Notes under the pieces: model-generated
The model's input: the letters and a program-made list of their open reading frames with translations, nothing else
The model's database searches: none
Told to the model about the DNA's origin: nothing
Part shown: positions 37,614 through 55,672 of the stretch, in pieces
Layout of the letters: each line of letters opens with the position of its first letter
Numbering within the stretch: position 1 is the stretch's first letter
Assembly (NCBI GenBank): GCA_029260345.1
Contig: JAJDDK010000006.1
Span: forward strand, 434,001-498,000
Length of the DNA stretch: 64,000 bases
Direction: 5' to 3'
Source: Phycisphaerales bacterium
Lineage (GTDB): Bacteria; Planctomycetota; Phycisphaerae; Phycisphaerales; UBA1924
Program-made: the position numbers and the translations under genes

Positions 37614-38519
37614 TTACGAAGCGGTCTGCACCCGAATCTGCGGCCGAATCGCACCGGCAGTCTCTGAGCGCACACGCCCGCGATCCGTCGCGGGGCGATT
37701 CGTGATCGGCGTCGGCCGATTGATCCAACCGTTGTCCGCTTCGTAACCGAGCGCCATCAGTGTGTCACCCGCGAGATCAGCGAAGACTTCACGCGCTTCG
37801 CGCGAAAAGTGGTTGACCCAGTCACCGGCGACGCCCTTGCGAATAAAGCTTGAGCGGTTTTCCTGTCCCGGAGCGCGTCCGGTCTGGCGGCGCATCGAGT
37901 ATTTCTCGACGGCGAGATCAAGCCGCCAGTCCGCAGGTATCTTGTCCGTCAGAGAAGCGCACGTGCGCGCAAGTTCCTCGCGTGTGTCCGTCAGTAGATC
38001 TTCGTATCGCGTTTGCGTCACGCCGGGACGACCCCACCATGATTCCACGTGGGTGGTCCAGTTCACACGAGCGCCGACCGGGTGCGCAAAGACGTATGGG
38101 ATAAAGCGAGGAAGGTTCTCAAGCGTGTTGTTCAGGTCTGCGTCAGCGCCGAACAGCCGTCGCAAGCGACGCGCGAGGGCGACGTCCCTGGTGCGTGACT
38201 GGAACTGCACGTGTCGCACGAAGTGAAAGTACAGCGAAACAACGACGTCGCGCCCGTCGCGCACCATGTACACAGTTCGCTTCAGTGCCGGGTCATATTT
38301 CCAGTGGGCATGCACCATCGCAGGCATGGCGATCGGCGCCGCAGGGCGCTTCGGGAAAGGCACCTGTAGGCAATCCGCCAGCATCTGCCCAAGCCAGGTG
38401 CCGCCGGACTTCGGGTACTCGCACAGGAAATACATGGGGAAGGCATCGCCCCAGTGACGACCGATCTGACGCGTCATTCGGTTGGAGGCGGACTCGCACA
38501 ATTCTCGAATGCTTGGCAT
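37614..38519 (-). CDS. Sulfotransferase
   Basis: 301 residues with the PAPS-binding sites of the sulfotransferase family: 5'-phosphosulfate loop YPKSGGTWLGQ near residue 35 and 3'-phosphate site VRDGRDVVVSLY; FIRKGVAGDWVNHF near the C terminus matches the third conserved block RKGxxGDWK. Transfers sulfate from PAPS to a hydroxyl, probably on a surface glycan given the flippase and polymerase candidates that follow on the same strand. Confidence 0.9.
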   Translation of the reverse strand: MPSIRELCESASNRMTRQIGRHWGDAFPMYFLCEYPKSGGTWLGQMLADCLQVPFPKRPAAPIAMPAMVHAHWKYDPALKRTVYMVRDGRDVVVSLYFHFVRHVQFQSRTRDVALARRLRRLFGADADLNNTLENLPRFIPYVFAHPVGARVNWTTHVESWWGRPGVTQTRYEDLLTDTREELARTCASLTDKIPADWRLDLAVEKYSMRRQTGRAPGQENRSSFIRKGVAGDWVNHFSREAREVFADLAGDTLMALGYEADNGWINRPTPITNRPATDRGRVRSETAGAIRPQIRVQTAS

Positions 38520-38689: not shown

Positions 38690-40261
38690 TTACGCCTCGC
38701 GCGGACGCGCCACACCAAAGGCTCGCAGCATGCGCTGTCGCTCCGCCGGCGTCATCACAAAGGCCCCCGTCAGCGCCGCCACAAGGGCGCTGTACACCGC
38801 CGCCGTCAGGAGCAGCCACCACAAGGTCCAGCCCTGGCCGGCGGCGTACCGGGACAGGAAGACCAGCGCCGGCGCCGCAACGCCCGCCGCAACCATGGGG
38901 CGGCTGACGGGCAGCAGGAAATCGCGCACTTTGAGTTTGGTGCATCGCGCCCCGATGATCGGCAGCACAATGGCATGAATCGTCAGGAAGACCACCGTGT
39001 ACCCCCAGCCGACCGCCGTATAGCTCACCGAATTCGGCAGCACCGCCAGCAGGATGATCGCAAGGATGGGGTTGCTGACGCCGCCAAGCAGCACCAGCGG
39101 CGCATACTGTTTGACATAACCCGCGCCGTACAGGATTCGCATCCACCCGTCCGAGATCGCCCGCGCCGTCAAGCCCAGCATCATGATCTGCACGAGCGTC
39201 ACCGCGAACGGGATGTATTTCGCCGGGTCATCCAGATAGCGACCGACCCACAGCGTCAGCGCGGGCTCCGCAAGCACGAAGACACCCACCGCCGACGGAA
39301 TCGCCACCAGAGCATGTAGCCGCGTCGAATGATGTACCAATCGGCGCATGCGGCTCACATCATCCTCCGACGCAATCCGTGCACTCACGGCGTCCACGCC
39401 AAACGTCATGCCCATCGTCGCCATACGCACATAGCTGGTGAGCCGCAGGCTCAGCCCAAAGACGGTGTTTCCCCAGAGCCCGAACGCGAGATTCATGATG
39501 AGCGCCGCAACGCGCTCGTGAAGGTTCACCGCGAGGATGACCGCGCTGTTCCACCCAAATGTTCCTGCGACTTCGCGCAACACTGTTCTTGCAAAGAATC
39601 GCGGCCGCGGAAACAACCGGTGGTCTTTCAGGATGTAAGCGCCAACAAAGAGGAGCACCAGCGCCGTATTCATCGCGCCGGGCACGATGCCGTACAGCGT
39701 GACGCCGCGAACCGGGTCGCGGATTCCAAGCAGATAGAAGAGAACGACCGCCGCAATCAGGTAATTGGCGCGCCGAATGGTCGTGAAGAGGTTGTGAGCC
39801 ATGAAGCGCTCGGCGACGACATACATGTTCAGCGCCGGCGCCAGGAGAATCATGGTCAACAGCGCTACGCCTTCACCGGCGACCAGCCAGCGCGCCGGGG
39901 TCACGAGCTCCGGCGTGATTTGCAACAGTGGCACGGCTGCAATGATGCCCGCAAACGCCAACGCGGCGACAAATCCTGACGCTGCGCAAATGATGTACGA
40001 CGAGTTGTACGTGCGTAGGAACGATTCGCCGCCCTCGCGGTATGACGCGGCGAGTTCGCGAATGAGGCTTTGTCGAGTGAGATCCTGAAAGATCGAGCCA
40101 AGGCCAAGCGTGGCGCCCAAGAGGGCGACCAGGCCGAAACCGTCGCTGCCCAGCCACGCCATTTGCAGGCGCGTCAGAACAATGCCGATGATCAACGTCG
40201 CGCCGAGACGCACGTAGTTGGGAATAATTCGGAGGAACTGTCGGCGTGCTTCAGTGGCCAC
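38690..40261 (-). CDS. Polysaccharide flippase (Wzx/MATE-like)
   Basis: 523 residues with about 12-14 hydrophobic helices and the oligosaccharide flippase pattern: NYVRLGATLIIGIVLTRLQMAW at the start and GLSLRLTSYVRMATMGMTFGVDAVSARIA in the middle. Moves lipid-linked oligosaccharide units across the cytoplasmic membrane. Same strand as the polymerase-like gene upstream and the sulfotransferase downstream. Confidence 0.88.
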   Translation of the reverse strand: MATEARRQFLRIIPNYVRLGATLIIGIVLTRLQMAWLGSDGFGLVALLGATLGLGSIFQDLTRQSLIRELAASYREGGESFLRTYNSSYIICAASGFVAALAFAGIIAAVPLLQITPELVTPARWLVAGEGVALLTMILLAPALNMYVVAERFMAHNLFTTIRRANYLIAAVVLFYLLGIRDPVRGVTLYGIVPGAMNTALVLLFVGAYILKDHRLFPRPRFFARTVLREVAGTFGWNSAVILAVNLHERVAALIMNLAFGLWGNTVFGLSLRLTSYVRMATMGMTFGVDAVSARIASEDDVSRMRRLVHHSTRLHALVAIPSAVGVFVLAEPALTLWVGRYLDDPAKYIPFAVTLVQIMMLGLTARAISDGWMRILYGAGYVKQYAPLVLLGGVSNPILAIILLAVLPNSVSYTAVGWGYTVVFLTIHAIVLPIIGARCTKLKVRDFLLPVSRPMVAAGVAAPALVFLSRYAAGQGWTLWWLLLTAAVYSALVAALTGAFVMTPAERQRMLRAFGVARPREA

Positions 40262-40360: not shown

Positions 40361-41806
40361 TCACCAAGCGGACGATCCGTAGTTCGTCGCGACAGCCTGG
40401 TCTTCATACAACAAATCATCGCCATACTGATCATCGTCGTATGGACCGACCTCCGAGCCGTGCTCAGCGTGGTGATCCCAACCGCCGCCCTCTTCGTCTG
40501 CGGTTTGCATCCGCCATCCGAGCATGCTCATGACCTTGGCGCACAGGTACATCAGCACCCACACCGCCGAGATTCCGAGTACGGCCTGAAAGAGGAACAG
40601 CCCCGTTTCTCCTCGTGCAAGACCGACGAATTGTCCGAGTGTGGTGCCCACCGGAAGAACGACAAACGGATTCGTTGGATACAGCACAATCAATCGATCG
40701 AGGAAACCGATTAACAAACCGCCAAAGATCGCATAGATCGGCAGCGCCAACAGGGGATTGTCAGACGCGATGTGTCCAATGATGCCGGGGCCGATGCTGT
40801 AGTTCGAGGCTCGCTTCCGGTCCGCGTTTGCTTGCGCCACCGCCGTGCGCCCAAGCGCCTCCGGTTTGTTCTCATAGAACTCGCGTGGCACACCCAGCGT
40901 GAGGAAGTACCGCCCGGTGTGCAATGTGTCGTAGGGATATCTCGATGGGTAGTTCTCTATCAGCCACATGCTGTTTCGCCCGGCGTCCTGCCCTGACAGC
41001 AAGAGATAAATGCCTTCCTTGACGTTGGCGCCGCGGACGGCCGACACCGACTGCCCAAGCGAGCGATCACGATTGGAACTGTCTCGAGCAGCCGTGAATG
41101 CGGCAATAAGCACAAGGGCCGCAAACCCGGCCCCGCCCAGTCGCACAAGGACCGCTCTCGGCCCGAGGTGCTTCCAGTAGCCGTGATATGCGCCCCAGCC
41201 AAAGCATCCCACCACACCCAGAATGGCGCGCCGGCCAAAGTCCGTGTGAAGCACGCCGGCAAGCGCCAGTGCCGTGACGCCAAACGTCATGATGGCAATG
41301 ACGGGATTAAACATGCGCCCGGCCCACACCCACGCGGCCGTTCCTGCCGCGACGGCCAGCAGCCCCGATCCCATCATGAAGAAAGCAGGCGCCACCACCG
41401 GCAACTGAATCAAGACCACTCGAAAAAACAATCCAACACCAAGAAACACGAACGCAAGCGTCAGCATGCTGGCGGCTGCGGGCTCTGCATTGCCTACGGG
41501 GACGCGGTACGCGAGCCAGTGCACGAACCAGCCACGCGAGTACGCAAGAAAAAAGAGCCCCAGGAATATCGTGACCATGAAGAAGTACAGGATCGCCGTT
41601 CCCGGCATGCCGACGAGTCCGAAATCACGCGTCTGCGGTCCGGTGATGCCCAAGGCGCCACTGATTAATTGAAAAACAATGAAGCCGAGCAAAAAGAAGT
41701 TTCGAACACTGAGCAGCTCAACCTTGCCGGAAAGCCCTTGAAAGAGCATGACCGCGACAAGCGCCATCGCCATGAAAACAAGGATGACTGCGATAAGTGA
41801 AGCCAT
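40361..41806 (-). CDS. Multi-span membrane protein, Wzy-like polymerase candidate
   Basis: 481 residues with about 10-11 membrane helices and a large loop (roughly residues 245-340: SLGQSVSAVRGANVKEGIYL to RKRASNYSIGPGIIG) as in O-antigen polymerases and ligases, followed by a last pair of helices and an unusual acidic tail (DEEGGGWDHHAEHGSEVGPY and onward). No diagnostic motif for Wzy exists, so the call rests on topology and neighbours. Confidence 0.55.
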   Translation of the reverse strand: MASLIAVILVFMAMALVAVMLFQGLSGKVELLSVRNFFLLGFIVFQLISGALGITGPQTRDFGLVGMPGTAILYFFMVTIFLGLFFLAYSRGWFVHWLAYRVPVGNAEPAAASMLTLAFVFLGVGLFFRVVLIQLPVVAPAFFMMGSGLLAVAAGTAAWVWAGRMFNPVIAIMTFGVTALALAGVLHTDFGRRAILGVVGCFGWGAYHGYWKHLGPRAVLVRLGGAGFAALVLIAAFTAARDSSNRDRSLGQSVSAVRGANVKEGIYLLLSGQDAGRNSMWLIENYPSRYPYDTLHTGRYFLTLGVPREFYENKPEALGRTAVAQANADRKRASNYSIGPGIIGHIASDNPLLALPIYAIFGGLLIGFLDRLIVLYPTNPFVVLPVGTTLGQFVGLARGETGLFLFQAVLGISAVWVLMYLCAKVMSMLGWRMQTADEEGGGWDHHAEHGSEVGPYDDDQYGDDLLYEDQAVATNYGSSAW

Positions 41807-42233: not shown

Positions 42234-43847
42234 GTGCGCCCAATGTTTATATCGATAATCGCGCTTTGCCTGGCAATGGCCGCACAGGCGCAGACGCCTG
42301 CATTTACCAACGTCACTTCAACCACATTGGCGGACGCCACCGGGCATAGCCGCGGCGTCGCATGGGGTGACTACGACGGCGATGGCGATCTCGACATCTA
42401 CGTGACGAACTGGACCGGCGGCCCCAATCGGCTTCATCAAAACAATGGCGACGGAACGTTCACCTGGATTAATGGAACAATTCTGGATGATTCCAGTTTC
42501 GGCGGCATCGCGACCTGGGTGGACATGGACAACGATGGTGATCTCGATCTCTTCGTCACCAACAGCGGCGCCAATCGAATGTACCGCAACGAGGGTGGCG
42601 GCAGCTTCTCGGAGATTCTCATCGCCGCTATTCAAGATGGCGGTCTGACCCGGTCTGCGGCGTGGGCCGACGTCGACCTGAACGGGTTTGTCGATTTGTA
42701 CTTTTCCGTCGCCGGCATCGCAGGACCGGCGCCGACCGGCAAAGTGAACAAGCTCTTTCTGACGCTTGGTCCAACCGTCTTTTTTCCTTACGCGCCGGAT
42801 ACGCTTGAACTTCCACTTCAAATCGGACGAGGCGTCGCTTGGGCGGATTACGACCTGGATGGCGACATGGACCTGTACGTCGCCAATGGCGGTCCTCCTG
42901 CCTCATACAACGAGGGCGACATCGATCATTCCAATGCGCTGTTCCGGAACAATGGCGACGGCACCTTCAGCAACATTACTCCGCCTGAACTTGAACACGA
43001 CAACGACAGCCGATCCGCGACGTGGGTGGACTACGACAATGATGGAGATTTCGATCTCTTCGTGACAACCGTGTCCACCAGCAACAACATGTTGTTTCGC
43101 AACACGGGCGATGGTTTCGTCGCGACGAACCATCCGGAATTGGGCGCCGGTGGCCGCACGCGCGACGCGAGCTGGGGCGACCATAACAACGACGGATACA
43201 TCGACGTGTACCTGTCACGAGTGGATGACAATCGCCTGCTGCAGAATGTCAATGGCGGGTTCGCGTTTATCAATGTGACGAGTGGTCAGCTTGGAAACGC
43301 GGCGAACGGACGAGGCGTCGCGTGGGCTGATTTTGATGATGACGGAGATCTCGATCTTTTTAATGCGACGACGTCCGCCAACACGTTGTTTCGCAACGAC
43401 ACCGAGACCACGAACCACTGGCTCAAAGTTCGGCTCGAAGGCGTTTCGTCCAATCGGTCAGCGGTGGGCGCACGAATCAAGGTCACAACCGGCGACATGA
43501 CGCAAATGCGACAGGTCACCGCCGGCGAAGGCTACATGTCGTGCCCGCCCCTTGAACAACATTTCGGCCTCGGGCAGGCGGAAATTGTGGATCGCATCGA
43601 GATCATCTGGCCTTCCAGTTCAATTGTTCAAATCTTCGAAGATGTGCCGGCGGACCAAGTATTGATTGTCGTTGAAGCCGCACAAGGAACAGCGGACATC
43701 AATGGAGACGGCTTGGTGAACGGCGCGGACCTCGCGACGCTGCTGTCGTTGTGGGGATCTTCGAGCCCCGAGGGCGACCTCACCAATGACGGTGTGGTCA
43801 ACGGCGCTGACCTCGCGGTCTTGCTTGCCAATTGGGGGGGCGCATGA
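42234..43847 (+). CDS. Secreted FG-GAP/VCBS protein with ASPIC/UnbV and dockerin-like domains (type A, copy 1)
   Basis: 537 residues from GTG 42234 with GGAGAGAGAG upstream. Signal peptide MRPMFISIIALCLAMAAQAQ, then about seven FG-GAP-type calcium-binding repeats (DYDGDGDLDIYVTNW, DMDNDGDLDLFVTNSG, DFDDDGDLDLFNATT), predicted to fold as an integrin-like beta propeller. Residues about 390-480 (NHWLKVRLEGVSSNRSAVGARI to IIWPSSSIVQ) are an ASPIC/UnbV module. The C terminus has two dockerin-like calcium loops (DINGDGLVNGADLATLLSLWG and DLTNDGVVNGADLAVLLANWG). Secreted; ligand unknown. First of six coupled genes. Confidence 0.92.
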   Translation: MRPMFISIIALCLAMAAQAQTPAFTNVTSTTLADATGHSRGVAWGDYDGDGDLDIYVTNWTGGPNRLHQNNGDGTFTWINGTILDDSSFGGIATWVDMDNDGDLDLFVTNSGANRMYRNEGGGSFSEILIAAIQDGGLTRSAAWADVDLNGFVDLYFSVAGIAGPAPTGKVNKLFLTLGPTVFFPYAPDTLELPLQIGRGVAWADYDLDGDMDLYVANGGPPASYNEGDIDHSNALFRNNGDGTFSNITPPELEHDNDSRSATWVDYDNDGDFDLFVTTVSTSNNMLFRNTGDGFVATNHPELGAGGRTRDASWGDHNNDGYIDVYLSRVDDNRLLQNVNGGFAFINVTSGQLGNAANGRGVAWADFDDDGDLDLFNATTSANTLFRNDTETTNHWLKVRLEGVSSNRSAVGARIKVTTGDMTQMRQVTAGEGYMSCPPLEQHFGLGQAEIVDRIEIIWPSSSIVQIFEDVPADQVLIVVEAAQGTADINGDGLVNGADLATLLSLWGSSSPEGDLTNDGVVNGADLAVLLANWGGA

Positions 43848-45163
43848 ACCGATTGATGGAACGAAACACCAAGATGAATGGAGTGAGAATGCGTATTGGA
43901 ATGACGTGCGCCGTGGCCGCGACCCTCAACGGATTGCTCACCGGCGGCGCCGCGGGAACCATTGAATTCGCGCCGCCCGGGTTGCATCAGAGCGGACATA
44001 ACTCAAGCGCAGTGAGATTCGTTGATCTCAATGGCGATGGGCGATTGGACATCGCGACCGCCAATCGGCAATCGAATGATGTCACGCTCATGTTCTTTGT
44101 TCCACCATTTGGATTTTCGCAACCAGTTTCGCATCCCACAGGAGAATTTCCGCGTTCCCTCGATGTGGCGGACATCAATGGCGATGGCAATCCGGATCTG
44201 TTGACTTCGAATTGGAATTCGGGCACCGTGTCCATTCTTTTGGGCGATGGCATGGGCGGGTTGGCGCCGGCGCTTCATATCGCCACCGGGCCGCGACCAT
44301 CGTTCGCCACGTTTTTTGACATGAACGGCGATGGCGCACCGGATTTCGCAGTCGCGGATTCCAGTTTGAATCAGGTGATGGCGTATCGCAACGACGGGTC
44401 TGGCGCATTCAGTTTGCACGCCACGTTCGCCGTCAGCAGCGAGCCCCGCTGGATCGAACCTTGTGATGTTGATGGTGACAACGATCTCGATTTAATAGTC
44501 GCGAACCGAATCGCTGACAAAGTGACGGTCCATCGCAACACCAACGGCGCTGGATTCTTCTTGCCGGGACAGGTCATTGACACCGTGGGATCAAGGCCGC
44601 GCTCACTGGCGGTGGATGACTTGGATGGCGATGGCGATGATGATCTTGCCGTTGCGAATTTCGGCAGCGGCGACATTGTGGTGTATGAGAATGTTGCAGG
44701 ACTCTTCGAAGAACGATTCCGCGCGATCAGCGGGCAATCACCGCATGAAATTGACATCGCCGATCTGAATAATGATGGCGAGCTGGATGTCATCGTGACC
44801 AATGTTTCAGCAGGCGACACGCGCGCTTTCGCTGGAATTGGAAACTTCAATTTTCTTCTGCCGGCGCCGATTGTCACGCTTTCGAATCCTTCCGGATTTG
44901 ATCTTGGCGACATCGATCTTGATGGGGATCTCGACATTGTCACCGGACATTCCGCGCTTGTGCTCGCCGTGGCACGCAATGTCAGCGAGCCGACGTCTCG
45001 CCCCGGCGACTTCAACCAGAACGGACTGGTCGACGGCGCCGATTTGGCCGTCCTGCTGGGCGCCTGGGGGGAGTCAGAATCCATTGCTGACATCAACGGC
45101 GATGGCATTGTGAACGGAGGCGACCTCGCCATGCTCCTGGCGAATTGGGGCGACGGAGACTGA
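43844..45163 (+). CDS. Secreted FG-GAP/VCBS protein with dockerin-like tail (type B, copy 1)
   Basis: 439 residues from ATG 43844, which overlaps the previous stop (ATGA); ATG 43889 with GGAG 5 bases upstream would give a tidier signal peptide (MRIGMTCAVAATLNGLLTGGAAG) and 424 residues. Repeats such as DLNGDGRLDIATANRQSNDV, DINGDGNPDLLTSNW and DLDGDGDDDLAVANFG form a beta propeller; unlike type A there is no UnbV module. The end is a two-loop dockerin-like domain (DFNQNGLVDGADLAVLLGAWG, DINGDGIVNGGDLAMLLANWG). Similar along its length to the gene at 46946-48241. Confidence 0.9.
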   Translation: MNRLMERNTKMNGVRMRIGMTCAVAATLNGLLTGGAAGTIEFAPPGLHQSGHNSSAVRFVDLNGDGRLDIATANRQSNDVTLMFFVPPFGFSQPVSHPTGEFPRSLDVADINGDGNPDLLTSNWNSGTVSILLGDGMGGLAPALHIATGPRPSFATFFDMNGDGAPDFAVADSSLNQVMAYRNDGSGAFSLHATFAVSSEPRWIEPCDVDGDNDLDLIVANRIADKVTVHRNTNGAGFFLPGQVIDTVGSRPRSLAVDDLDGDGDDDLAVANFGSGDIVVYENVAGLFEERFRAISGQSPHEIDIADLNNDGELDVIVTNVSAGDTRAFAGIGNFNFLLPAPIVTLSNPSGFDLGDIDLDGDLDIVTGHSALVLAVARNVSEPTSRPGDFNQNGLVDGADLAVLLGAWGESESIADINGDGIVNGGDLAMLLANWGDGD

Positions 45164-45165
45164 GT

Positions 45166-46860
45166 ATGTGGCGGGAACGGGGCAATGTGTTGTTCGGCCA
45201 GCGAATGCGTCTCATGGCGCGATGGGTCTGCGCGCCGATCTTCGCCTCGATGACGCCCTTGGCCTTGGGCCAGGATGTCGGTGACCTTGTCATTATCAAG
45301 AATTTTGACGAAGGACCCGCGACACCGACCTTCACCGATGTCACCAACCCCGACATGGCGGATGAGACCGGCCATAGTCGCGGCGTCGCATGGGGCGATT
45401 TTGATCAGGACGGCGACATCGATCTCTACGTGACGAACTGGACGCACGGCGCCAATCGGCTGCACGTCAACAACGGCGATGGAACGTTCACATGGGCGAC
45501 GGGAACGCCGCTCGACGATGTGGGCTTTGGGGGTCGAGCCATTTGGGCCGACTATGACAACGATGGCGATCTCGATCTTTATCTCGTCAACAGCGGCGCC
45601 AACCGGTTGTATCGCAATGACGGAGGGATTCAATTCACGGACATAACCAACAATGCGCTGGCCGACGGCGGTTTAAGTCGATGCGCCGCGTGGGGTGATT
45701 TCAATAACGATGGCTTCGTTGACATGTATTTGACCGTCAGTGGGGTCAATGTCAACAACGACGTCAATGTCCTCTTTCTGAATCTGCAAGGGAACGCCCT
45801 CTCGCTCTTTGTGAATCCGGTGCTAGAGCTTCCCGAGCGCGTGGGTCGAGGCATTTCGTGGGCCGACTATGACAACGATGGCGACCTGGACATGTACGTC
45901 GCCAACGGCGGGCCGCCGGACGAGGGTCCAAAGGATCCGCCAGTGAATGACAGCAACGCGCTTTTTCGGAACGATGGCGGCGCGTTTGTTGAGGTGACCC
46001 CGCCCCAGCTCTTGTTGCAGGACAACAGTCGGTCCGTCACTTGGGCGGACTACGACAATGACGGCGATCTCGATCTACTGGTGACCACCGGTTCAAGTGG
46101 CGCCAACATTCTGTTCAAGAACGTTGAAAGCGGATTTGCGCCAGTAAGCAGCGACACCATCGGCGCCGGCGGACGAACGCGCGATGCCGCATGGGGAGAC
46201 TTCGACAATGATGGCGATCTGGATCTGTATTTATCGAGACTGAGCGACAATCGGCTTTTGCGAAATGATGGCGATGACGTCTTTACGAATGTCACGACGG
46301 GTGAGCTCGGGAACGCCGCAAACGGTCGTGGCGTCGCATGGGCCGATTACGACGACGATGGCGATCTGGATCTCTTCAACGCCACCACCATGGCCAACAC
46401 GCTCTTCCGAAATGACACGCACGTTCAGAACGATTGGCTCAAAGTCAAGTTGCAGGGAACCATCAGCAATCGTGACGGCATCGGGGCTCGCATTTATGTG
46501 CGGACGGGCGAACGCACGCAAATGCGCGAAATCGCCGCAGGCGAAGGGTATTTGTCGCAGCGACCAATGGTGCAACATTTCGGACTTGGGCAACTGGGCC
46601 ATATTGACGAAGTTGAAGTGGTCTGGCCTGCCAGCGGCCGTACACAGCAGTTCTTGAATGTCATTCCGAATCAGACAATGGTGATCACGGAGCCGATGTC
46701 CTCGACGGATCTCAATGGCGATGGTGAAGTGGACGGCGCCGATCTGGCGATTTTGCTCAGCGCGGTCGGAACCGAGTCTCCACTGATGGATGTGTCATCA
46801 GATGGCGTCGTGGATGGAATTGATGTCGCCATGCTCTTGAGCGCATGGGGAAATCGGTGA
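45166..46860 (+). CDS. Secreted FG-GAP/VCBS protein with ASPIC/UnbV and dockerin-like domains (type A, copy 2)
   Basis: 564 residues from ATG 45166 with GGAG at 45155-45158, two bases after the previous stop. Long basic leader then hydrophobic segment ending near PLALGQ. Architecture and many stretches match the type A protein at 42234-43847: ETGHSRGVAWGDFDQDGDID, NGDGTFTWATGTPLDD, GNAANGRGVAWADYDDDGDL, NDWLKVKLQGTISNRDGIGARI (UnbV), and a C-terminal dockerin-like pair (DLNGDGEVDGADLAILLSAVG, DVSSDGVVDGIDVAMLLSAWG). The second loop has I-D-V in place of A-D-L, a small deviation. Confidence 0.92.
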   Translation: MWRERGNVLFGQRMRLMARWVCAPIFASMTPLALGQDVGDLVIIKNFDEGPATPTFTDVTNPDMADETGHSRGVAWGDFDQDGDIDLYVTNWTHGANRLHVNNGDGTFTWATGTPLDDVGFGGRAIWADYDNDGDLDLYLVNSGANRLYRNDGGIQFTDITNNALADGGLSRCAAWGDFNNDGFVDMYLTVSGVNVNNDVNVLFLNLQGNALSLFVNPVLELPERVGRGISWADYDNDGDLDMYVANGGPPDEGPKDPPVNDSNALFRNDGGAFVEVTPPQLLLQDNSRSVTWADYDNDGDLDLLVTTGSSGANILFKNVESGFAPVSSDTIGAGGRTRDAAWGDFDNDGDLDLYLSRLSDNRLLRNDGDDVFTNVTTGELGNAANGRGVAWADYDDDGDLDLFNATTMANTLFRNDTHVQNDWLKVKLQGTISNRDGIGARIYVRTGERTQMREIAAGEGYLSQRPMVQHFGLGQLGHIDEVEVVWPASGRTQQFLNVIPNQTMVITEPMSSTDLNGDGEVDGADLAILLSAVGTESPLMDVSSDGVVDGIDVAMLLSAWGNR

Positions 46861-46945
46861 ATCATTTCACCTTTCTTTTTGATTGGCATGGACTTCTGAC
46901 CTTGCGTCTTGAAGGATGTCGTGGTGCGGGAGGTGAGTTTTGATC

Positions 46946-48241
46946 GTGAATCCAGCGACCACATTGCAACCGCGCGGTCGATTGGGCCTTGCGCTGGTGG
47001 CAATCGCTCTTCCTTTTGCAGCAGCGGACGCATTCTCGGCGATCGTGTTCCAGCCGTTTGTGACGTATCACGCTGGGCAAAATTCAAGCGCGGTCCGTTT
47101 TCACGATCTCAACAATGATGGCTTTCCTGACATTCTGACGGCGAATCGCGAGTCTAACGACGTGACCATCCTCTTGAGTGATGGCGCCGGCGGATTCGAA
47201 GAAGCCGCGGCTTTCGCGGTCGGAATGGTGCCGCGGTCAATCGATATCGGCGATCTCAACGGCGATGGCTTGGACGACATCGTGACGGCCAATTGGGACT
47301 CGGGCGATCTTTCGGTGCTGTTTGGCGATGGCGCTGGCTCGATCTTGAACACCATCAATATTCCAATCGGGATTCGACCGGTGTTCGCCACCATCGCGAA
47401 GATCGACGGCGATGATTTTCCAGATCTGGTGGTCGCAGATTCGTCCACCCACCTAGTCCATATTTTGACGAATGACGGCCTCGGCGTCTTTGCGTTACAC
47501 ACCACGGTGACGGCGCAGGCCGAGCCGCGGTGGGTGGAAGTTTTTGATGTGGATGGCGACGGTGATCTCGATTGTGTGGTCGCCAATCGCGTGGCGGATT
47601 CTCTCACCGTTCACTTGAACAATGGGGTTGGCGCCTTTTCGCCCGGTCAAGTCATTGATGATGTGGGCGCCCGTCCTCGGTCGATTGATGCCGCTGACAT
47701 GGATGGTGATGGCGATCTCGATATCGGGGTGGCCCTGTTCGGGGACGATGGTGTGGTCGTATATGAGAACGCCGCCGGCCTCTTCGTCGAACGCTTTCGA
47801 GCGTTCAGCGGCGATGCGCCGCACGAAATTCGCATTCTCGACCTTGATAAAGACAATGTGCTTGATCTCGCAATAGCGCATGTCAGCTTCGCCCGCGTTC
47901 GTGTTTTCGCAGGGACCGGTGCGTTCACATTCGCTCCCCCGGCCCTTTTGAACACACTCTTGAATCCCGCGTCGCTCGATTTCGCCGATATTGACCTGGA
48001 TAACGATTTTGATGTGGTGACGGGTCACTCAGCGGGGACCATTGCTTTTGCCAAGAATATTTCGCAACCGGGCGCGGCGCTCGGAGACTTCAATATGAAT
48101 GGAGTGGTGGACGGGGCGGATCTTGCGACCATGCTTGGTCAATGGGGCTCAACCAATTCCATTGCGGATTTGACTCAAGATGGAATCGTCAATGGGGCTG
48201 ATCTGGCGACACTGCTCGCCAACTGGAGTATTACAAAATGA
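46946..48241 (+). CDS. Secreted FG-GAP/VCBS protein with dockerin-like tail (type B, copy 2)
   Basis: 431 residues from GTG 46946, with GGAGGTGAG upstream; a TTG six bases earlier is in frame. Signal segment LGLALVAIALPFAAADAFSA. Propeller repeats (DLNNDGFPDILTANRESNDV, DLNGDGLDDIVTANW, DMDGDGDLDIGVALFG) track the type B protein at 43844-45163, including HAGQNSSAVRF near the start. Ends in DFNMNGVVDGADLATMLGQWG and DLTQDGIVNGADLATLLANW. An 85-base gap before it is the only real break in the coupled cluster. Confidence 0.9.
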   Translation: MNPATTLQPRGRLGLALVAIALPFAAADAFSAIVFQPFVTYHAGQNSSAVRFHDLNNDGFPDILTANRESNDVTILLSDGAGGFEEAAAFAVGMVPRSIDIGDLNGDGLDDIVTANWDSGDLSVLFGDGAGSILNTINIPIGIRPVFATIAKIDGDDFPDLVVADSSTHLVHILTNDGLGVFALHTTVTAQAEPRWVEVFDVDGDGDLDCVVANRVADSLTVHLNNGVGAFSPGQVIDDVGARPRSIDAADMDGDGDLDIGVALFGDDGVVVYENAAGLFVERFRAFSGDAPHEIRILDLDKDNVLDLAIAHVSFARVRVFAGTGAFTFAPPALLNTLLNPASLDFADIDLDNDFDVVTGHSAGTIAFAKNISQPGAALGDFNMNGVVDGADLATMLGQWGSTNSIADLTQDGIVNGADLATLLANWSITK

Positions 48242-49536
48242 TCATGGCCCCCCGATTTATCACGCTCGTGTTCATCACGTGCGCCGCATCATGCGCGCTG
48301 TCGAGCGCTGTCGTCGCGACGCCGATCCCGGAATTTGAATCTGCCATTGAATACGTCCAGAATGATCGTCCGACGTTCGTCATTAGCAGAGATTTTGACG
48401 GTGACGGCGATTTTGATGTGGCCCTCACGCGGCGCGACGGCAATGTTGCGGTGATCTTTCTGAACAATGGTCAGGGCGCGCTTTCATTGCATCAGACGGT
48501 CAACGTGCAGGTGGCGCCGCGCGGCCTCGAGGCCGGTGATTTTGACGACGACGGCGATCTTGACATCGCCGTAGCCAACTGGTCCACGGGATCGAGCAGC
48601 ATTTCTATTCTGAAGAATGATGGCAATGCGAATTTTACGAATGTTCAGAATTTGATGTTGACACAAGCGGCGCGGCCGCGAGCCGTGGCGCCGCTCGACA
48701 TTGACAACGATGGTGATCTTGATCTGGTCAGCGCAAACAACTTTGGAAACTCTGTCGGTGTGATGATCAACAACGGGAGTGGCGTCTTTGCGCACGTCGC
48801 CGACCTTCCCAACAGCGGGCAGCCCGGTTCGGTGCATGCGGGCGATCTGAATGGTGACGGCTGGTCCGACATCGTCGTCACAAACCGCGCCGAAGATAGT
48901 TTGTCCGTGTATCTGAATGACGGCGCTGGAAATTTAGTGCATCTCGACAATCACTACGCGGGCAATGCCCCGCGCGACGAAGCGCTCGGCGACATCGATG
49001 GCGATGGCGATCTTGATGTGGTGGTTGCGGCTGGCGGCGCCGGGGCGGTCCAGGTCTTCATGAACAACGGCGCTGGAGAAATGACCTTTTTTCGTTCCTA
49101 TCAAGCAGGATCAATTCCGCATTCAGTCAAACTTCATGATCTGAATGATGACGGAATGCTCGATCTGATCGTGGCGGACGCGGATGGAGTGAACGCGACC
49201 ATTCGTCTCAATACGGGCGGCAGCTTTGGCGGTCGCATCGTTGAACCGGCCGGTGGCGTGCAGGTTTTCATTGAAGTGGCGGATCTGAATGGCGACGGAT
49301 ACCTCGATCTCATTCATGTGGATGGCGTGCTGCAGCTTCGTGTCCAGTTTGGCGCTCCGGTCGAAGTCGAGTGCATCCCCGCTGACATTGACGTCAATGG
49401 CGTCGTGAATGCAAGTGACCTGGCGTATGTGCTTGCGACCTGGGGCGCCGGCTCGGGCCCGGCGGATATCAACATGGATGGCGTGGTGAATGGAACCGAC
49501 CTCGCCATCGTGCTGTCGAATTGGTCTTCGCCCTGA
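48238..49536 (+). CDS. Secreted FG-GAP/VCBS protein with dockerin-like tail (type B-like, copy 3)
   Basis: 432 residues; ATG 48238 overlaps the previous stop (ATGA). Signal peptide around ITLVFITCAASCALSSAVVA. Calcium-loop repeats: DFDGDGDFDVALTRRDGNVA, DFDDDGDLDIAVANWSTG, DIDNDGDLDLVSANNFGNS, DLNGDGWSDIVVTNRAEDS. Related to the type B proteins but more diverged. C-terminal loops DIDVNGVVNASDLAYVLATWG and DINMDGVVNGTDLAIVLSNW have N/T in place of the first A/G, so the dockerin-like tails differ slightly within the cluster. Confidence 0.9.
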   Translation: MIMAPRFITLVFITCAASCALSSAVVATPIPEFESAIEYVQNDRPTFVISRDFDGDGDFDVALTRRDGNVAVIFLNNGQGALSLHQTVNVQVAPRGLEAGDFDDDGDLDIAVANWSTGSSSISILKNDGNANFTNVQNLMLTQAARPRAVAPLDIDNDGDLDLVSANNFGNSVGVMINNGSGVFAHVADLPNSGQPGSVHAGDLNGDGWSDIVVTNRAEDSLSVYLNDGAGNLVHLDNHYAGNAPRDEALGDIDGDGDLDVVVAAGGAGAVQVFMNNGAGEMTFFRSYQAGSIPHSVKLHDLNDDGMLDLIVADADGVNATIRLNTGGSFGGRIVEPAGGVQVFIEVADLNGDGYLDLIHVDGVLQLRVQFGAPVEVECIPADIDVNGVVNASDLAYVLATWGAGSGPADINMDGVVNGTDLAIVLSNWSSP

Positions 49537-51596
49537 TGAGGAAAGAGTCGGTTGTGGACGAACGAAAATGGCGATTTGTGATGACGATATCCCTGCTCTG
49601 GGGATCATGTTTCATTGGACATTTTGCAGCAGCCCAAATGGATCCTATTGATCCGCCAGCGCCACCACTCGTGACGACTATTGAATGGCTCGAGTGGTAT
49701 GACGAACTGCTCGAGTCTCGCATTGACGCCGTTTCGTTTCCCCGCGATGAAACGCGATTTGTCAGCAGCTCCCTGGGCGATGACCAGAATGATGGACTCA
49801 CGCCAGAGTCCGCGTGGGCCAGTGTCGAAGCGGCTCGTGAGTGGATTGAATCGGCGAACCCCGAGAATCAAACGCGCGAGGTCTTGTTTCGTCGCGGCGA
49901 TGTCTGGCGCACGCGCTCGATCATCGATACAGAACAGCCCGGTGTGCGATTCGCGGATTTTGGAGACTCTGCAGAGCCAGCGCCCTATTTCACCGGCTTT
50001 ACGGGAGTGGCTGAAATCAATGACATGAGTTGGACGCAACTTGGTGACGAGCCGGTGTTCTGGCGTCACGTGCCGGGACACGTGTCCTGGGTGCGCGAAG
50101 ACGGCGATGCGGATCTGGACGCCCCGCTCGCGAAGCAGTACTCAGCGCATGCGTTGTCCAAGGTCGCTGGTTCCTGGTGGTGGGATAGCGCGACGTCGCG
50201 GCTCCTCATTCATCCGCGCGAGGAGGACGATCCGCGGCAGAATGGGAAGACATATGAATGGGCATTCTCAAACGAAGCGGGGTTTTCTGTGGGCGGCGAT
50301 TTATCGCTCGTTGAAAATCTCCGCGCCGACGGGTTTGGACTTGATCCGGTCGTGACGGCGCCGCAGCGTGAAGCATTTCAGTCCACCGCAAAGGACGATG
50401 AACAGGTCGTTTTTCGTAATTGCACGGCTTATTACGGCGGCAGTCATGTGATTGCGCACAATGCAAGCGGCAACACCGGTGGAATCGCGACGTTTTTCCA
50501 GTGCGTCGCCGGATTCACCAAACGCAACGGCTCTGGCGAAACGGTGTTCAATACATTCGCTGGAAACGGCGGAAATCAAACGATTTTTCATGAATGCACC
50601 GTGGCGCGGGGGACGCTGCCGGAAGGCTTCGACACCGGTCGCCGGTCAGATCCTGTGTTTGGGCATACCCTCGGTGGCGCAAAATTGGGACTGACCATCG
50701 TGTATGGTTTGCGTGTTATTGGTCATCCGCACGGCGCAATGCGCACTGGCCGTTTCAACAACACACAACCCGCCGCGTCGCTTGAAGAGGTTCGTTGTTT
50801 CATCGTCGGTTCGAAGGTTGAAGGCGGCGACGGAACTGGCGATCGGTTGACGCCCCTGTTTCAGGAAGGGACCGCGTACGTGAATTGCTCGTATTCGCTG
50901 AAGCCGCACAACCTAGGCTCCAATGCACGGCTTCAATCGAATTCAGTTGATGGCTGGTGGATCAATTCGACGCTCGATCTCGATCTCTCGAATCAGACGT
51001 ATTCGAATTTTGATTTGTATCGAACATCCGAGAATGATAATAAAGCGCGATGCTGGAACAGCGCGATCACCCTTCGAAACGTACCGCCTGGAGTCACCGT
51101 GCGACTTGATGGGGGCGGCGCTCAGGATTCGCCAAACGCGACATTCTTCAATACAGCGTTTTCAAAACTCGGAAGCGAGGGCGAATTCAGTGTCAATTTG
51201 CCGAACGCTATTTCGAACATTTGTGGGAACGCCTATTGGCAAGTTGAGAAACCAACATCCGATTCAAGCGGCGTTGAATTGTCGGCGCCTCCGGATTTCT
51301 CGGCGCGACTTGCGTCCGATTCTCCGCTTGGGGCGGCGGGTAAAGCCTTGCCGGGGGGACTCGTTCTCGAGTTTGATCAGACGCAATCGCTGCGATTCCA
51401 CGACCCGCCAACGATCGGGCCGCTCGAAGTGGCGACCGTCGGGGCCGACTTGAATCAGGACGGCGTCGTGAACGGCTCCGACCTTGCAGTCGTGCTTGCG
51501 TCCTGGGGCAGTGACCAGTCCGCCGCGGATCTGAATGCGGACGGCATCGTGAATGGAGCCGATCTCGCTTTGCTGCTAGCGGCGTGGTCACCCTGA
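49536..51596 (+). CDS. Secreted parallel beta-helix-like protein with dockerin-like tail
   Basis: 686 residues from ATG 49536, which overlaps the previous stop (TGATG). Signal segment MTISLLWGSCFIGHFAAAQ. FVSSSLGDDQNDGLTPESAWASVEAAREW is the start pattern of right-handed beta-helix proteins such as pectate-lyase-like enzymes and polysaccharide-binding proteins; the middle is rich in asparagine/glycine turns (AHNASGNTGGIATFFQC, NTFAGNGGNQTIFHEC). No catalytic motif recognised. Ends with two dockerin-like loops (DLNQDGVVNGSDLAVVLASWG, DLNADGIVNGADLALLLAAW). Last gene of the six-gene run; may act on or bind the neighbouring polysaccharide. Confidence 0.8.
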   Translation: MRKESVVDERKWRFVMTISLLWGSCFIGHFAAAQMDPIDPPAPPLVTTIEWLEWYDELLESRIDAVSFPRDETRFVSSSLGDDQNDGLTPESAWASVEAAREWIESANPENQTREVLFRRGDVWRTRSIIDTEQPGVRFADFGDSAEPAPYFTGFTGVAEINDMSWTQLGDEPVFWRHVPGHVSWVREDGDADLDAPLAKQYSAHALSKVAGSWWWDSATSRLLIHPREEDDPRQNGKTYEWAFSNEAGFSVGGDLSLVENLRADGFGLDPVVTAPQREAFQSTAKDDEQVVFRNCTAYYGGSHVIAHNASGNTGGIATFFQCVAGFTKRNGSGETVFNTFAGNGGNQTIFHECTVARGTLPEGFDTGRRSDPVFGHTLGGAKLGLTIVYGLRVIGHPHGAMRTGRFNNTQPAASLEEVRCFIVGSKVEGGDGTGDRLTPLFQEGTAYVNCSYSLKPHNLGSNARLQSNSVDGWWINSTLDLDLSNQTYSNFDLYRTSENDNKARCWNSAITLRNVPPGVTVRLDGGGAQDSPNATFFNTAFSKLGSEGEFSVNLPNAISNICGNAYWQVEKPTSDSSGVELSAPPDFSARLASDSPLGAAGKALPGGLVLEFDQTQSLRFHDPPTIGPLEVATVGADLNQDGVVNGSDLAVVLASWGSDQSAADLNADGIVNGADLALLLAAWSP

Positions 51597-51665: not shown

Positions 51666-52484
51666 ATGGCCGCACCGTCTCCAGATCGTGTCACGTTTCT
51701 CGTCGTCGGCTGCCAGCGGTGCGGCACCACCTGGCTTGATTCCGCACTGCGCGAGCATCCGCAGGTCTTTCTTCCGGCGACGAAGCAGAGCTACTACTTC
51801 GACCGCAATCTCGATCGTGGTGACGACTGGTGGCTGGAGCGATTCACAGACGCGAAGCCCCAGCACACTGCGGTTGGTGAGGTGGCGACGGGATACACGC
51901 TCCCGCAGGCGGTGGATCCGATGGCGGCGCTGGCGCCGCACGCAAAGCTTGTGATGACAATGCGGCATCCGATTGAGCGGGCGTACAGCTTTTTTCAGAG
52001 TCGCCGTGCTGAACAGGGCTGGTCGTCATTCGAGGAAGCGCTTGCAGCTGACCCAGAACTCATCAGTCGCGGCAAATACATTGATCAGATCGAGCACTTA
52101 CTGAAGCACTATCCGCGCGAGCAGTTGCTGCTCTTGTTCTACGATGACTTCGCGAAAGACAACGCGGCGTATTTGCGAAAGGTGCTGGATTTCATCGGCG
52201 TCGATACAGAGTTTGACTCGACGCAGGTGGGTCGGCGGCGGAATGCGGCGATGTTTCCGCGGCTTCGGCGGACCTTGCATCGTGTGGGTCTCAAGCCCGT
52301 ATTGGCGGCGCTGAGCCGCAGCAAGGTGGGGGACGCCGTTCGGAAGGCGAATAACCAGCGCCGGACCGATCCGAGTGAGGCGATGTCGGCGGAGACGCGG
52401 CGCCGGTTGGTCGATGAATTCAGGCCCTCCAACGATCGTCTGGCGCAGTTCGCCGGGCGCGATCTCTCGCACTGGAACCAATAA
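51666..52484 (+). CDS. Sulfotransferase (heparan/NodH-type)
   Basis: 272 residues from ATG 51666; an alternative TTG at 51609 adds 19. FLVVGCQRCGTTWLDSALREHP is the 5'-PAPS loop and MTMRHPIERAYSFFQ the 3'-phosphate site. QSYYFDRN and GKYIDQIEHLLKHYP are typical of carbohydrate sulfotransferases of the deacetylase/sulfotransferase group. Probably sulfates a surface sugar. Starts the second glycan block and is followed by two glycosyltransferase genes. Confidence 0.9.
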   Translation: MAAPSPDRVTFLVVGCQRCGTTWLDSALREHPQVFLPATKQSYYFDRNLDRGDDWWLERFTDAKPQHTAVGEVATGYTLPQAVDPMAALAPHAKLVMTMRHPIERAYSFFQSRRAEQGWSSFEEALAADPELISRGKYIDQIEHLLKHYPREQLLLLFYDDFAKDNAAYLRKVLDFIGVDTEFDSTQVGRRRNAAMFPRLRRTLHRVGLKPVLAALSRSKVGDAVRKANNQRRTDPSEAMSAETRRRLVDEFRPSNDRLAQFAGRDLSHWNQ

Positions 52485-52505: not shown

Positions 52506-53678
52506 ATGAAGATTGGCGTTTATGTCTCAGCGGCGGCCGTGCAGCGCGGGTACGAGCGCAATGTCTCCGGGCATATTCAGATCCCGATGCGCTCGCTGGA
52601 GCTCCTGCGCGCTGCGGGTCACGATGCGCGCCTGCTGACGAACTGGTACGACGAAGAGACGCATACGTTGCCCGCGTGCGCCCCAAGTGATGTGCCAATC
52701 CACCTGATTGAAGACGCCCGCGTGCGCGGCAGCGTGCATGAATCAAAGGGGGCCCACCGGAAAGGCGTGCGCGTCGGTTCACTCCGCCGCCAGATCGGGC
52801 AGTTGCTTTCGATCAGCCGCGATGAGTCATTCGACGTGCTGCATTTGTACGGCGTGAATCGCACAGCCCATCTTGGTGGGTTGCTCAAGGTGCTTGGCTT
52901 GAGAGCGCCGGTCGTCTGCACCATGTTTCGGGCGGATTTTCCTGAGCGATTCGGTGTACTGACTAAGCAGCTTTGGAAACGCGTTGATGCGCTGGTGACA
53001 GCGACGGAATTCGTGCGGAAGAATATTCAGGGCGCCGGGCTGGATGCCACCATCATTCGGCACGGGATTGTGCGCGACCTTCGCGCTGAGGTCGAAGATG
53101 AATCGATTGGCGCCAAGAATCGCGTGTTGTTCTGGCGCGATCCATCCGAGAACAACGGCGCCGATATCTGCGCCAAGGTGTACGATGCGCTGGCGCCGAA
53201 GTATCCCGACATCAGTTTTAATTTGGCGATCCGGCCGCACTGGGCTGAGGTTGAAGGCCTGGATGAGCTTGCGGCGCGGCATCCGAATGTAAACGTGTAC
53301 CGATTCCCGTATGAGCCCGGCATCACGCTGCCGAAGCTCGTGCTTGAGTCGCTGTGTGTATTGCTTCCGTTCCGACGCATGACGATCTGCCCTCAGCTTG
53401 CGATTGCGGAGTCGCTCGCGGTGGGCGTGCCGGTGGTCGCGACGGATCTGTGGTCGAACAATGAACTCATCACGCCGGGGCGAAATGGTGATCTCGTCCC
53501 CGTCGGCGACGTCAACGCGACTATTGCAGCGGTGGAGGGGGTCATCAAGGACCGCGATCATGCCTTGCAGATGGGGCGCGACGCCGCAGTTGATCTTCGC
53601 GCTCAATGGAACTGGGATGATTACGTCGATGAAACGGTTGCGGTGTATGAAGCCGCGATGCAAGGTGGCAATCGATGA
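52506..53678 (+). CDS. GT4-like glycosyltransferase
   Basis: 390 residues with a GT-B fold layout: N-terminal MKIGVYVSAAAVQRGYERNV with NVSGHIQIP and VLHLYGVNRTAHLGGLLKVL, C-terminal ICPQLAIAESLAVGVPVVATDLWSNNELI with the Glu of the E-x7-E motif partly replaced. Lacks a textbook donor loop, so the donor is uncertain. Stop overlaps the start of the next gene (ATGA). Confidence 0.8.
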   Translation: MKIGVYVSAAAVQRGYERNVSGHIQIPMRSLELLRAAGHDARLLTNWYDEETHTLPACAPSDVPIHLIEDARVRGSVHESKGAHRKGVRVGSLRRQIGQLLSISRDESFDVLHLYGVNRTAHLGGLLKVLGLRAPVVCTMFRADFPERFGVLTKQLWKRVDALVTATEFVRKNIQGAGLDATIIRHGIVRDLRAEVEDESIGAKNRVLFWRDPSENNGADICAKVYDALAPKYPDISFNLAIRPHWAEVEGLDELAARHPNVNVYRFPYEPGITLPKLVLESLCVLLPFRRMTICPQLAIAESLAVGVPVVATDLWSNNELITPGRNGDLVPVGDVNATIAAVEGVIKDRDHALQMGRDAAVDLRAQWNWDDYVDETVAVYEAAMQGGNR

Positions 53679-55672
53679 GTGATCGGCCGGTTCATGCGGT
53701 GCACTATGTGCCTCGACTTCGACTCGAAGAGGGAGGCGTTGTTCGATCGGTCATCGATTTGTGCGCGGCGCTGGCGCTCGCTGGTCAGCGCGTGACGCTG
53801 CTGACGCATGACGCGACGGATGCGCCGGTGGAATGGTCAAACGATGCCGCCTCACCGCGCGTGATCACAATCAAGCCGACCGGAATGATGGCGCGCCGCC
53901 CGGACGGCGCCGCATGCAAAGCGATTGCGGAAGCGGATGTCGTGCATCTGCACACTCCGTGGGAACCCGGCAATATTGCGTTGGCGCGCGAAGCACGCGA
54001 TCAAGGCAAGCCGTATCTCGTCAGTGTGCATGGGATGCTGGACGATTGGTCAATGGCCCAGCGCCGGGCGAAGAAGGAAGCGTTTCTCGCGGCGGTTGGA
54101 ACGCGATTTCTCGAGGACGCCGCGTTTGTGCACTGCACGGCTGCGGCGGAGCTCAGGCAAGCACAGAGAACATTTCCGCAAGGCCGGGGCGTGGTGGCGC
54201 CGCTGGTTTTTGATCTTTCGGAATACGAAACGCAGCCCGGTCCGGAAGCGGCGCGCCAGCGGTGGCCGGCATTGGCGAATGGTCGGCCAACACTGCTGTT
54301 CTTGAGCCGCGTGCATTACAAGAAGGGCGCCGATCTTCTTATCGACATTGCGGCGGCGCTGCGGGATCGATCCATCGATGTGAACGTCCTGATCGCCGGC
54401 CCTGGCGATGACGATTACCTCGCAACGCTCAAGAATCGTGTGCGTGAACTGCAATTAGAAGATCGCGTCGAGTTCATTGGGCTGGTTTCGGGTGTTGAGA
54501 AGATCTCGCTGTACGAAGCGGCGGATGTGTTTGTCCTGCCGACCAGTCAGGAAAACTTCGGTTTCGTGTTTTTCGAGTCCCTCGCGGCGGGAACCCCCGT
54601 GGTGACGACGACGGGTGTAGACACGTGGCCGGAGCTTGAAGAGTCGGGCGGGGCGATGATTACGCCGCGCACCGTTGAAACGATGACTGAAGTGATTGCA
54701 GAATTGCTGCAGGATGGTGATCGCCTCCGCGTCATGGGCGAGCGCGGCAGGGCGTGGACGCTCGATCGCTTCCGCGGCCAGCGCGTTGTCGAGGAATACG
54801 TGGATCTGTATCGGCAGGCGATTACTGAACAACCGGCCGTTCAACCGGTGACCATGGAATTGCTTCGGCGTGTGGCGCGCAAGGGAGGCGCCGCCAGCAA
54901 GGATGACCCGTTCTGGGTCTCCAAGTACTTCTACCGACACATCACGATTTACTTTACTTGGGTTTGCGCCAAACTCGGGCTGTCCGCCAATGGCGTGACG
55001 CTGGCCAGCGCCATCGCAGTCTTCGCCGGCGCCATTTGCTTCGGTTTGCCGTCACGATGGACATGGCTCGCGGGCGCTCTGCTGGTGCAGCTCTATTTCA
55101 TTCTCGATCATGTCGACGGCGAGATGGCCCGCTTTGAGCGCGCCGTGAAGCGGCGCAGCTCCGGCATGGCTGGTGTGTTTTACGACACGGTGTGTCATGC
55201 GGGTGAAACCGCGGTGATGGCGGCGATCGCCCTGCGGCTGTTTGCTGATCTTGGAGGGCCGTGGTGGGTGATGGTCACGCTGATTGTGGCGCTCTTTCCC
55301 GGCGGCATCGACCCATGGCAGCGCTATTCTGAATCAGTGCTGGCGCATGGTGAGCGCACGGCAAAAGATGGAAAGATCACCTTGGATGCTCGCTTTGTTG
55401 AGAAGTCATCGATCGGGATGTCGTCGGGGACGGGGACGCCGAGTTGGCGCCGCGCGATTGGGTTAATCTCGCAGACAATCGGTTTTCCGGGGTATTTCGT
55501 GACGCTGCTGGCCGCGGCGGTGCTTGACTTGTTCCCCGCGCTTCAGATCGAGATCGGCGGCCAGCCTTTGCCGTACCTGTTCCTGTGGCTGCTCATTCGC
55601 GCCTTGCACAAGTCAGCGGCGGCGCTGAAATCGACGTTTGTTTACGGGCGGCGTTTGCGCGGGCTTGGTTAA
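53675..55672 (+). CDS. Fusion: GT4 glycosyltransferase plus CDP-alcohol phosphotransferase
   Basis: 665 residues. Residues 1 to about 375 are a GT4 glycosyltransferase (RLRLEEGGVVRSVIDL, FLSRVHYKKGADLLIDIAAAL, EAADVFVLPTSQENFGFVFFESLAAG). From about 420 a membrane domain of the CDP-alcohol phosphotransferase family begins: DHVDGEMARFERAVKRRSSG then GVFYDTVCH. The canonical D-G-x2-A-R-x8-G-x3-D-x3-D motif is altered: 13 residues between AR and G, and His instead of the last Asp. About six membrane helices follow. It would transfer a phospho-alcohol from a CDP-activated donor to a membrane acceptor. Overlaps the previous gene (ATGA) and the opposing dehydrogenase by 4 bases. Confidence 0.88.
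   Translation: MSDRPVHAVHYVPRLRLEEGGVVRSVIDLCAALALAGQRVTLLTHDATDAPVEWSNDAASPRVITIKPTGMMARRPDGAACKAIAEADVVHLHTPWEPGNIALAREARDQGKPYLVSVHGMLDDWSMAQRRAKKEAFLAAVGTRFLEDAAFVHCTAAAELRQAQRTFPQGRGVVAPLVFDLSEYETQPGPEAARQRWPALANGRPTLLFLSRVHYKKGADLLIDIAAALRDRSIDVNVLIAGPGDDDYLATLKNRVRELQLEDRVEFIGLVSGVEKISLYEAADVFVLPTSQENFGFVFFESLAAGTPVVTTTGVDTWPELEESGGAMITPRTVETMTEVIAELLQDGDRLRVMGERGRAWTLDRFRGQRVVEEYVDLYRQAITEQPAVQPVTMELLRRVARKGGAASKDDPFWVSKYFYRHITIYFTWVCAKLGLSANGVTLASAIAVFAGAICFGLPSRWTWLAGALLVQLYFILDHVDGEMARFERAVKRRSSGMAGVFYDTVCHAGETAVMAAIALRLFADLGGPWWVMVTLIVALFPGGIDPWQRYSESVLAHGERTAKDGKITLDARFVEKSSIGMSSGTGTPSWRRAIGLISQTIGFPGYFVTLLAAAVLDLFPALQIEIGGQPLPYLFLWLLIRALHKSAAALKSTFVYGRRLRGLG

Follow-up and report, generated by a model that had tools for sequence, protein, structure and literature searches.

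What is the function of a dockerin-like tail that is repeated on six secreted proteins encoded side by side? The question arises from the window analysed here, a stretch of 64,000 nucleotides (C6:434001-498000) of the 3.4 Mb genome of a Phycisphaerales bacterium (labelled G000), in which six consecutive open reading frames (ORFs), p1 to p6, run along the + strand from 42243 to 51596; all were verified in an ORF check on the window. Each protein has a hydrophobic, signal-peptide-like stretch at its N-terminus (judged by eye) and two loops of the form D-x-N-x-D-G-x-V-N-G-x-D-L-A-x-L-L-x-x-W at its C-terminus, which confirms the row of six tailed, apparently secreted proteins reported in the initial annotation. 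We will argue from sequence comparisons that the tail would be a dockerin-like docking module for a common surface receptor that is not recognisable as a cohesin, and that its genome-specific spelling, called its dialect below, would follow that receptor; the probability of this reading is put at roughly 0.58. A more specific version, in which this order of Planctomycetota would possess cohesin-less docking, with some 150 proteins per genome sharing one dialect and a fast-evolving receptor of a different fold, amounting to a species-specific surface address code, is offered tentatively, as a possibility with the odds somewhat against it.

A profile of the tails of this genome matches all six tails of the run (E 1.9e-24 to 2.5e-21), and the solved dockerins 6kg9 and 2y3n come first among the matches of the tail profile (E 7e-9). 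The cut-off of Pfam Dockerin_1 (PF00404, 22.9 bits) is passed by p2 and p6 (scores in Table 1), while p1, p3, p4 and p5 stay under it and all match the own-genome profile at E<=2.5e-21; genome-wide, PF00404 gives 104 matches, nearly all above the cut-off. The NF041540 profile (GC-type dockerin, cut-off 29 bits) is passed by p1, p5 and p6 (29.3 bits for the last), with p2 (27.3) and p4 (26.5) slightly under and p3 not among the matches, and at E<=0.001 it finds 34 of 77 other tail carriers. The notion of a dockerin-like tag common to these secreted proteins is supported. The proteins of the run are new representatives of NF041540, a known family that has barely been studied; a literature search for "GC-type dockerin" found no paper with this term. 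In its action the tail probably resembles a dockerin, and since no cohesin was found, we do not claim that it belongs to a cohesin-dockerin system.

The own-genome profile has at least 149 matches in the genome, on bodies that include M36, S8, M1, M10 and M12 peptidases, trypsin, haem peroxidases, GSDH, FG-GAP and choice-of-anchor families. FG-GAP bodies account for roughly a quarter to a third of the carriers, and for the choice-of-anchor and other body families differing anchors are known, going by the family names. The earlier idea that the tail marks a system special to the run is not supported, given some 145-150 carriers with diverse bodies and a family that already has a name. The tails are clustered above chance: 69 of 149 lie in same-strand runs, compared with 21 expected under uniform placement, and under the same placement a run of six tails was reached in 1 of 5,000 simulations. 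Tail runs are common in this genome, often as tandem duplicates, and there is a second run of six (L172, C4:280613-287413), whose bodies are mostly unrelated.

Further evidence for the docking reading comes from a comparison with tails of six other genomes, which were taken by the neutral PF00404 profile as best matches and not at random. The tails are spelled differently from genome to genome, and the differences concentrate at the recognition positions. The spelling is VNG[AS]DLAxLLAxW in G000, VN[AS]QDL[AG]ILLGxW in G009, x[AS]xDLAxLLG[SA]W in G128, VDGxDL[ST]xxLGxW in G275 and VNGFDIDPFVxxL in G127, and in a leave-one-out test by profile 73 of 102 tails are placed in the genome they come from, against a chance level of 0.15. 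The information on the genome of origin peaks at loop positions 10-11 and at helix positions 14, 17, 18 and 20, and it is zero at calcium positions 1, 5, 6 and 12. Positions 10-11 and 17-18 are the cohesin-recognition positions of dockerins (PMC3413522, PMC8063739).

The same positions stand out when tails on homologous bodies are compared, using 28 one-to-one pairs from different genomes (Wilcoxon test, pairs treated as independent). At recognition positions 10, 11, 17 and 18, the identity is 0.38 to the homolog and 0.56 to the own genome, with a between-genome background of 0.35, and the own-genome dialect is closer than the homolog in 24 of the 28 pairs (p=1.7e-4). No such difference is found at the calcium positions (p=0.67), and a smaller one is found at the other exposed positions (18 of 28 pairs, p=0.025). 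Such a pattern would be expected were the tails of a genome all to bind the same partner, with a binding face that changes between lineages. Another dockerin, of the DKYDAALVLRV type, lies outside the genome dialect (L002, G000:C4:410716-410862; L264; L295); it stays alike on homologous bodies in G009 and G241 and may have another partner.

Founder amplification with drift is a real rival to docking. In that case the tail would be a calcium-stabilised cap with no common partner, spread by duplication and shuffling, and the dialects would be founder effects followed by drift. The tandem duplicates among the runs would fit, as would the greater likeness of tails within one locus (0.61 vs 0.54 otherwise), the absence of cohesin matches with three profiles (see below) and a mild to moderate skew of synonymous codons at some leucine, alanine and valine positions. 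At most invariant residues, however, the diversity of synonymous codons is near the background of the bodies, so that recent copying, which was largely rejected on this ground, explains the uniformity of the tails poorly. The differences between dialects moreover concentrate at recognition positions and not at other exposed ones, and tails on homologous bodies have diverged toward the dialect of their own genome. A tail without any common partner is for us decidedly unlikely.

It should be stressed that several points weigh against docking to a common receptor. Part of the dialect pattern could have arisen by amplification within each lineage long ago, followed by drift. For each of the six genomes the sample was drawn from the top PF00404 matches and hence is not random, the 28 pairs are only partly independent, many of them sharing the G000 set, and the dialects of G260 (3 of 13 tails assigned), G275 and G241 (mixed) are imperfectly separated from the others. 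Some cohesin match at E<=0.1 is found in 8 of 32 tail-rich genomes, two of these being marginal, and the common receptor is a putative one.

The position of the tail bears on another explanation, namely that a dedicated machine of the type 9 secretion, PEP-CTERM/exosortase or myxosortase kind reads it as a C-terminal signal for secretion or sorting. In about 132 of the 142 carriers read (~93%), the protein ends at most 14 residues after the tail, which would suit such a signal, and the body families of the carriers have NCBIfam variants with type 9 secretion, myxosortase, rhombosortase and other anchors. A p1 homolog elsewhere (L034) has a dockerin and then PEP-CTERM, and exosortases are present in the genome (L231, G000:C3:16817-17575; L232, G000:C7:172831-173604). 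L034, on the other hand, shows that dockerin and PEP-CTERM are able to co-exist and do not replace each other, the two-loop calcium fold is that of a binding module, and the tails end in LLANWG, LLAAWTG and similar (by eye), with no transmembrane segment or basic end. In several complete ORFs, furthermore, the tail is internal or directly follows the signal peptide, and a second type A propeller protein of G128 (see below) has it inside the propeller. A strict C-terminal sorting signal was rejected on the internal and N-terminal tails, and these placements, together with the one inside a propeller, suggest that the tail is a module and not a cleaved C-terminal signal. We consider the sorting explanation very unlikely. 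As a separate observation, the two exosortase genes suggest that this bacterium probably has a PEP-CTERM-type system alongside its dockerin tails.

We now turn to the search for a partner. The cohesin family PF00963 has zero matches in the whole genome at E<=1, a planctomycete-wide profile made from 17 diverse cohesins has zero at E<=0.1, and a profile of the cohesin-HYR-dockerin proteins of a sister family matches the genome through its dockerin end only. The remark in the initial annotation that the window holds no cohesin is borne out and, with these three profiles, extends to the genome. With the planctomycete-wide profile at E<=0.1, no cohesin match is found in 24 of 32 tail-rich genomes; Pfam cohesin matches occur in 53 of 298 genomes of the class, rarely in this family. 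These negative results speak against a sub-case of docking in which the receptor would be a genuine cohesin or cohesin scaffold, diverged so far that it escapes detection, in a relative of the planctosome. Its support comes from an expansion of cohesin-HYR-dockerin proteins in some tail-rich sister-family genomes, from an M10-dockerin-cohesin-dockerin protein in two genomes of the same family, and from the fact that a planctomycete cohesin/dockerin complex has already been proposed (PMC6461901). We judge this sub-case unlikely.

Two observations on these cohesin proteins may be added. Those expanded in the sister family (L052-L057; G234, G266, G286) resemble the "adaptor" of the proposed planctosome. 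The M10-metalloprotease proteins with dockerin, cohesin and dockerin (L051, G128:C6; L364, G241:C11) are alike, and their dockerin-cohesin pair may dock within one chain.

In comparison with known systems, the tails share the two-loop C-terminal domain of NF041540, an entry that names the domain only and, as far as can be seen, does not cover the genome-specific dialects. With Dockerin type I (PF00404) and the cellulosomal pairs they have in common the fold, the calcium loops and the duplicated symmetric repeats. In cellulosomal dockerins the recognition residues are uniform within a genome and differ between species (PMC3413522), and the same holds here, with G260, G275 and G241 partly separated. 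Unlike in the cellulosomal pairs, no cohesin is detectable, the cargo consists of propellers, peptidases and oxidases and not mainly of glycoside hydrolases, and the recognition residues are G-[A/S] at positions 10-11 and L-A at 17-18. The planctosome, a hypothetical cohesin/dockerin complex of Nemodlikiaceae with cohesin anchors and adaptors (PMC6461901), likewise has non-cellulolytic, dockerin-tailed secreted proteins of planctomycetes, including peptidases, but that model calls for a lamin-tail/P-domain cohesin anchor and a cohesin-dockerin adaptor, and no cohesin was found in the present genome. Anaerobic methanotrophic (ANME) archaea have non-cellulosomal dockerin and cohesin proteins, the latter with up to five cohesins (PMC9012536); many dockerin-bearing proteins that are not cellulases are thus a common trait, while the archaeal genomes, unlike this one, encode cohesin proteins.

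The architecture of the run and the features around it are given in Table 1. The propellers follow the order A-B-A-B-B' (p1 to p5), and p6 comes last. The predicted structure of p2 (AlphaFold, mean predicted local distance difference test score (pLDDT) 86.6) consists of a propeller, similar to integrin-like and BBS-type propellers, followed by a two-helix tail domain. The tail is the only Pfam domain in p6, and a relative of p6 has weak local matches to a pectate lyase and a lacto-N-biosidase, in both cases to the N-terminal part; from these matches and the look of the sequence, the body is probably a right-handed beta-helix. An AlphaFold model of p6 made without an alignment (pLDDT 33) was not used. 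The tight junctions described earlier (ATGA, TGATG or short gaps, with one gap of 85 bases) were confirmed, the 85 bases holding with the GTG start of p4. The terminator-like hairpin in this gap means that p1-p3 and p4-p6 may form two separate transcription units.

Table 1. Features of the run p1-p6 and its surroundings (window positions).
Feature	Position	Strand	Remarks
p1: secreted FG-GAP propeller with UnbV/ASPIC and dockerin tail, type A	42243..43847	+	start ATG 42243; GTG 42234 also possible
p1 tail	43692..43841 (C6:477692-477841)	+	own-genome tail profile; NF041540 30.3 bits
p2: secreted FG-GAP propeller with dockerin tail, type B	43844..45163	+	start ATG 43844; ATGA overlap with p1
p2 tail	45002..45151	+	own-genome tail profile; Dockerin_1 28.0 bits
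p3: type A, 59% identical to its duplicate p1	45166..46860	+	start ATG 45166; 2-base gap after p2
p3 tail, most degenerate of the six	46705..46854	+	own-genome tail profile, E 2.5e-21
Terminator-like hairpin with T-run, in the p3-p4 gap directly after p3	46856..46871	+	from pattern alone; 19 in the whole region, 14.9 in shuffles
p4: type B, 54% identical to its duplicate p2	46946..48241	+	start GTG 46946; 85-base gap after p3
p4 tail	48083..48229	+	own-genome tail profile
p5: FG-GAP propeller, diverged type B, with tail	48238..49536	+	start ATG 48238; ATGA junction with p4
p5 tail	49378..49530	+	own-genome tail profile; NF041540 31.0 bits
p6: secreted, probable right-handed beta-helix body, with tail	49536..51596	+	start ATG 49536; TGATG junction with p5
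p6 tail	51444..51590	+	own-genome tail profile; Dockerin_1 29.4 bits
Sulfotransferase, codirectional downstream of p6	51666..52484	+	homolog in G128 locus, 56%
GT4-type glycosyltransferase	52506..53678	+	homolog in G128 locus, 51%
Glycosyltransferase fused to CDP-alcohol phosphatidyltransferase-like domain	53675..55672	+	
Multi-spanning Wzy-like membrane protein	40361..41806	-	named by position and topology, no Pfam match; homolog in G128 locus, 46%
MatE/flippase-like protein of polysaccharide locus	38690..40261	-	
Second sulfotransferase	37614..38519	-	

The relatives compared belong to other genera, none of the same genus being among those returned. Searches with p1 (40 relatives) and p2 (GTDB r220) gave scattered propellers, mostly of 27-40% identity, which suggested that the run is private to its lineage; this was rejected once p6 led to a locus (L352) in G128, another genus of the same family. 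L352 encodes a type A propeller, a fusion of type A and p6 with a single tail at its end, and two type B propellers, and close to them are homologs of the sulfotransferase, the GT4-type glycosyltransferase and the Wzy-like protein of the window. The genes stand in another order and orientation, with an endonuclease/phosphatase-like gene among them, so that L352 is a related, rearranged locus and not a case of strict synteny. In the fusion, the p6 body occupies the site of the p1 tail in G000, which leaves one tail per polypeptide; the fusion also hints that type A propellers and p6 may act together. Two findings had been named beforehand as telling against an undescribed system: many unrelated carriers with no partner, which is largely what the genome presents, and the absence of the run from all relatives, which the G128 locus contradicts.

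Relatives of p6 occur in 7 of 163 genomes of the family, and those read to the end all have a two-repeat tail, with differing spellings. In G020 (L365) and G416 (L368), the tail keeps the two-repeat shape, has lost most calcium ligands and has gained cysteines; the flank read beside these other relatives was 1.5 kb. Matches resembling p6 in G331 and G356 (24-29%) were rejected as this locus, since no homologs of the window's other genes adjoin them.

The placement of the run beside a polysaccharide locus, pointed out in the initial annotation, is supported, and the arrangement recurs in G128. Since the sulfotransferase and the two glycosyltransferases follow on the + strand at short gaps, the transcription unit may extend through them to 55672. 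It is this neighbourhood, seen in two genera, that would link the run to sulfated-polysaccharide genes.

These elements can be combined into a possible mechanism. The tail would be a folded calcium-binding module, normally one per polypeptide, on about 150 secreted proteins. After Sec export, it would fold with Ca2+ and dock to a shared receptor, one common surface or extracellular partner that cannot be recognised as a cohesin. The binding face of this receptor would shift from lineage to lineage, and the tails of each genome would all follow it, producing the dialect. The run would be a local cargo set of duplicated propellers and p6, made together with the sulfotransferase and glycosyltransferases, and the docked propellers and beta-helix protein would be displayed at a sulfated-polysaccharide surface. 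We infer the receptor, the location, the binding of calcium and the glycan contact, the latter through the propellers or p6.

To our knowledge, and within the literature searched, dialects without a cohesin are undescribed, and planctomycete genomes are rich in dockerin-tailed proteins that have no known partner. The dialect pattern leads to the prediction that each species would have one receptor, which binds tails of its own dialect and not foreign ones. If so, the receptor should be findable by pull-down or by co-variation, and the run would be a natural test case, with cargo and surface-polysaccharide genes found together in two genera.

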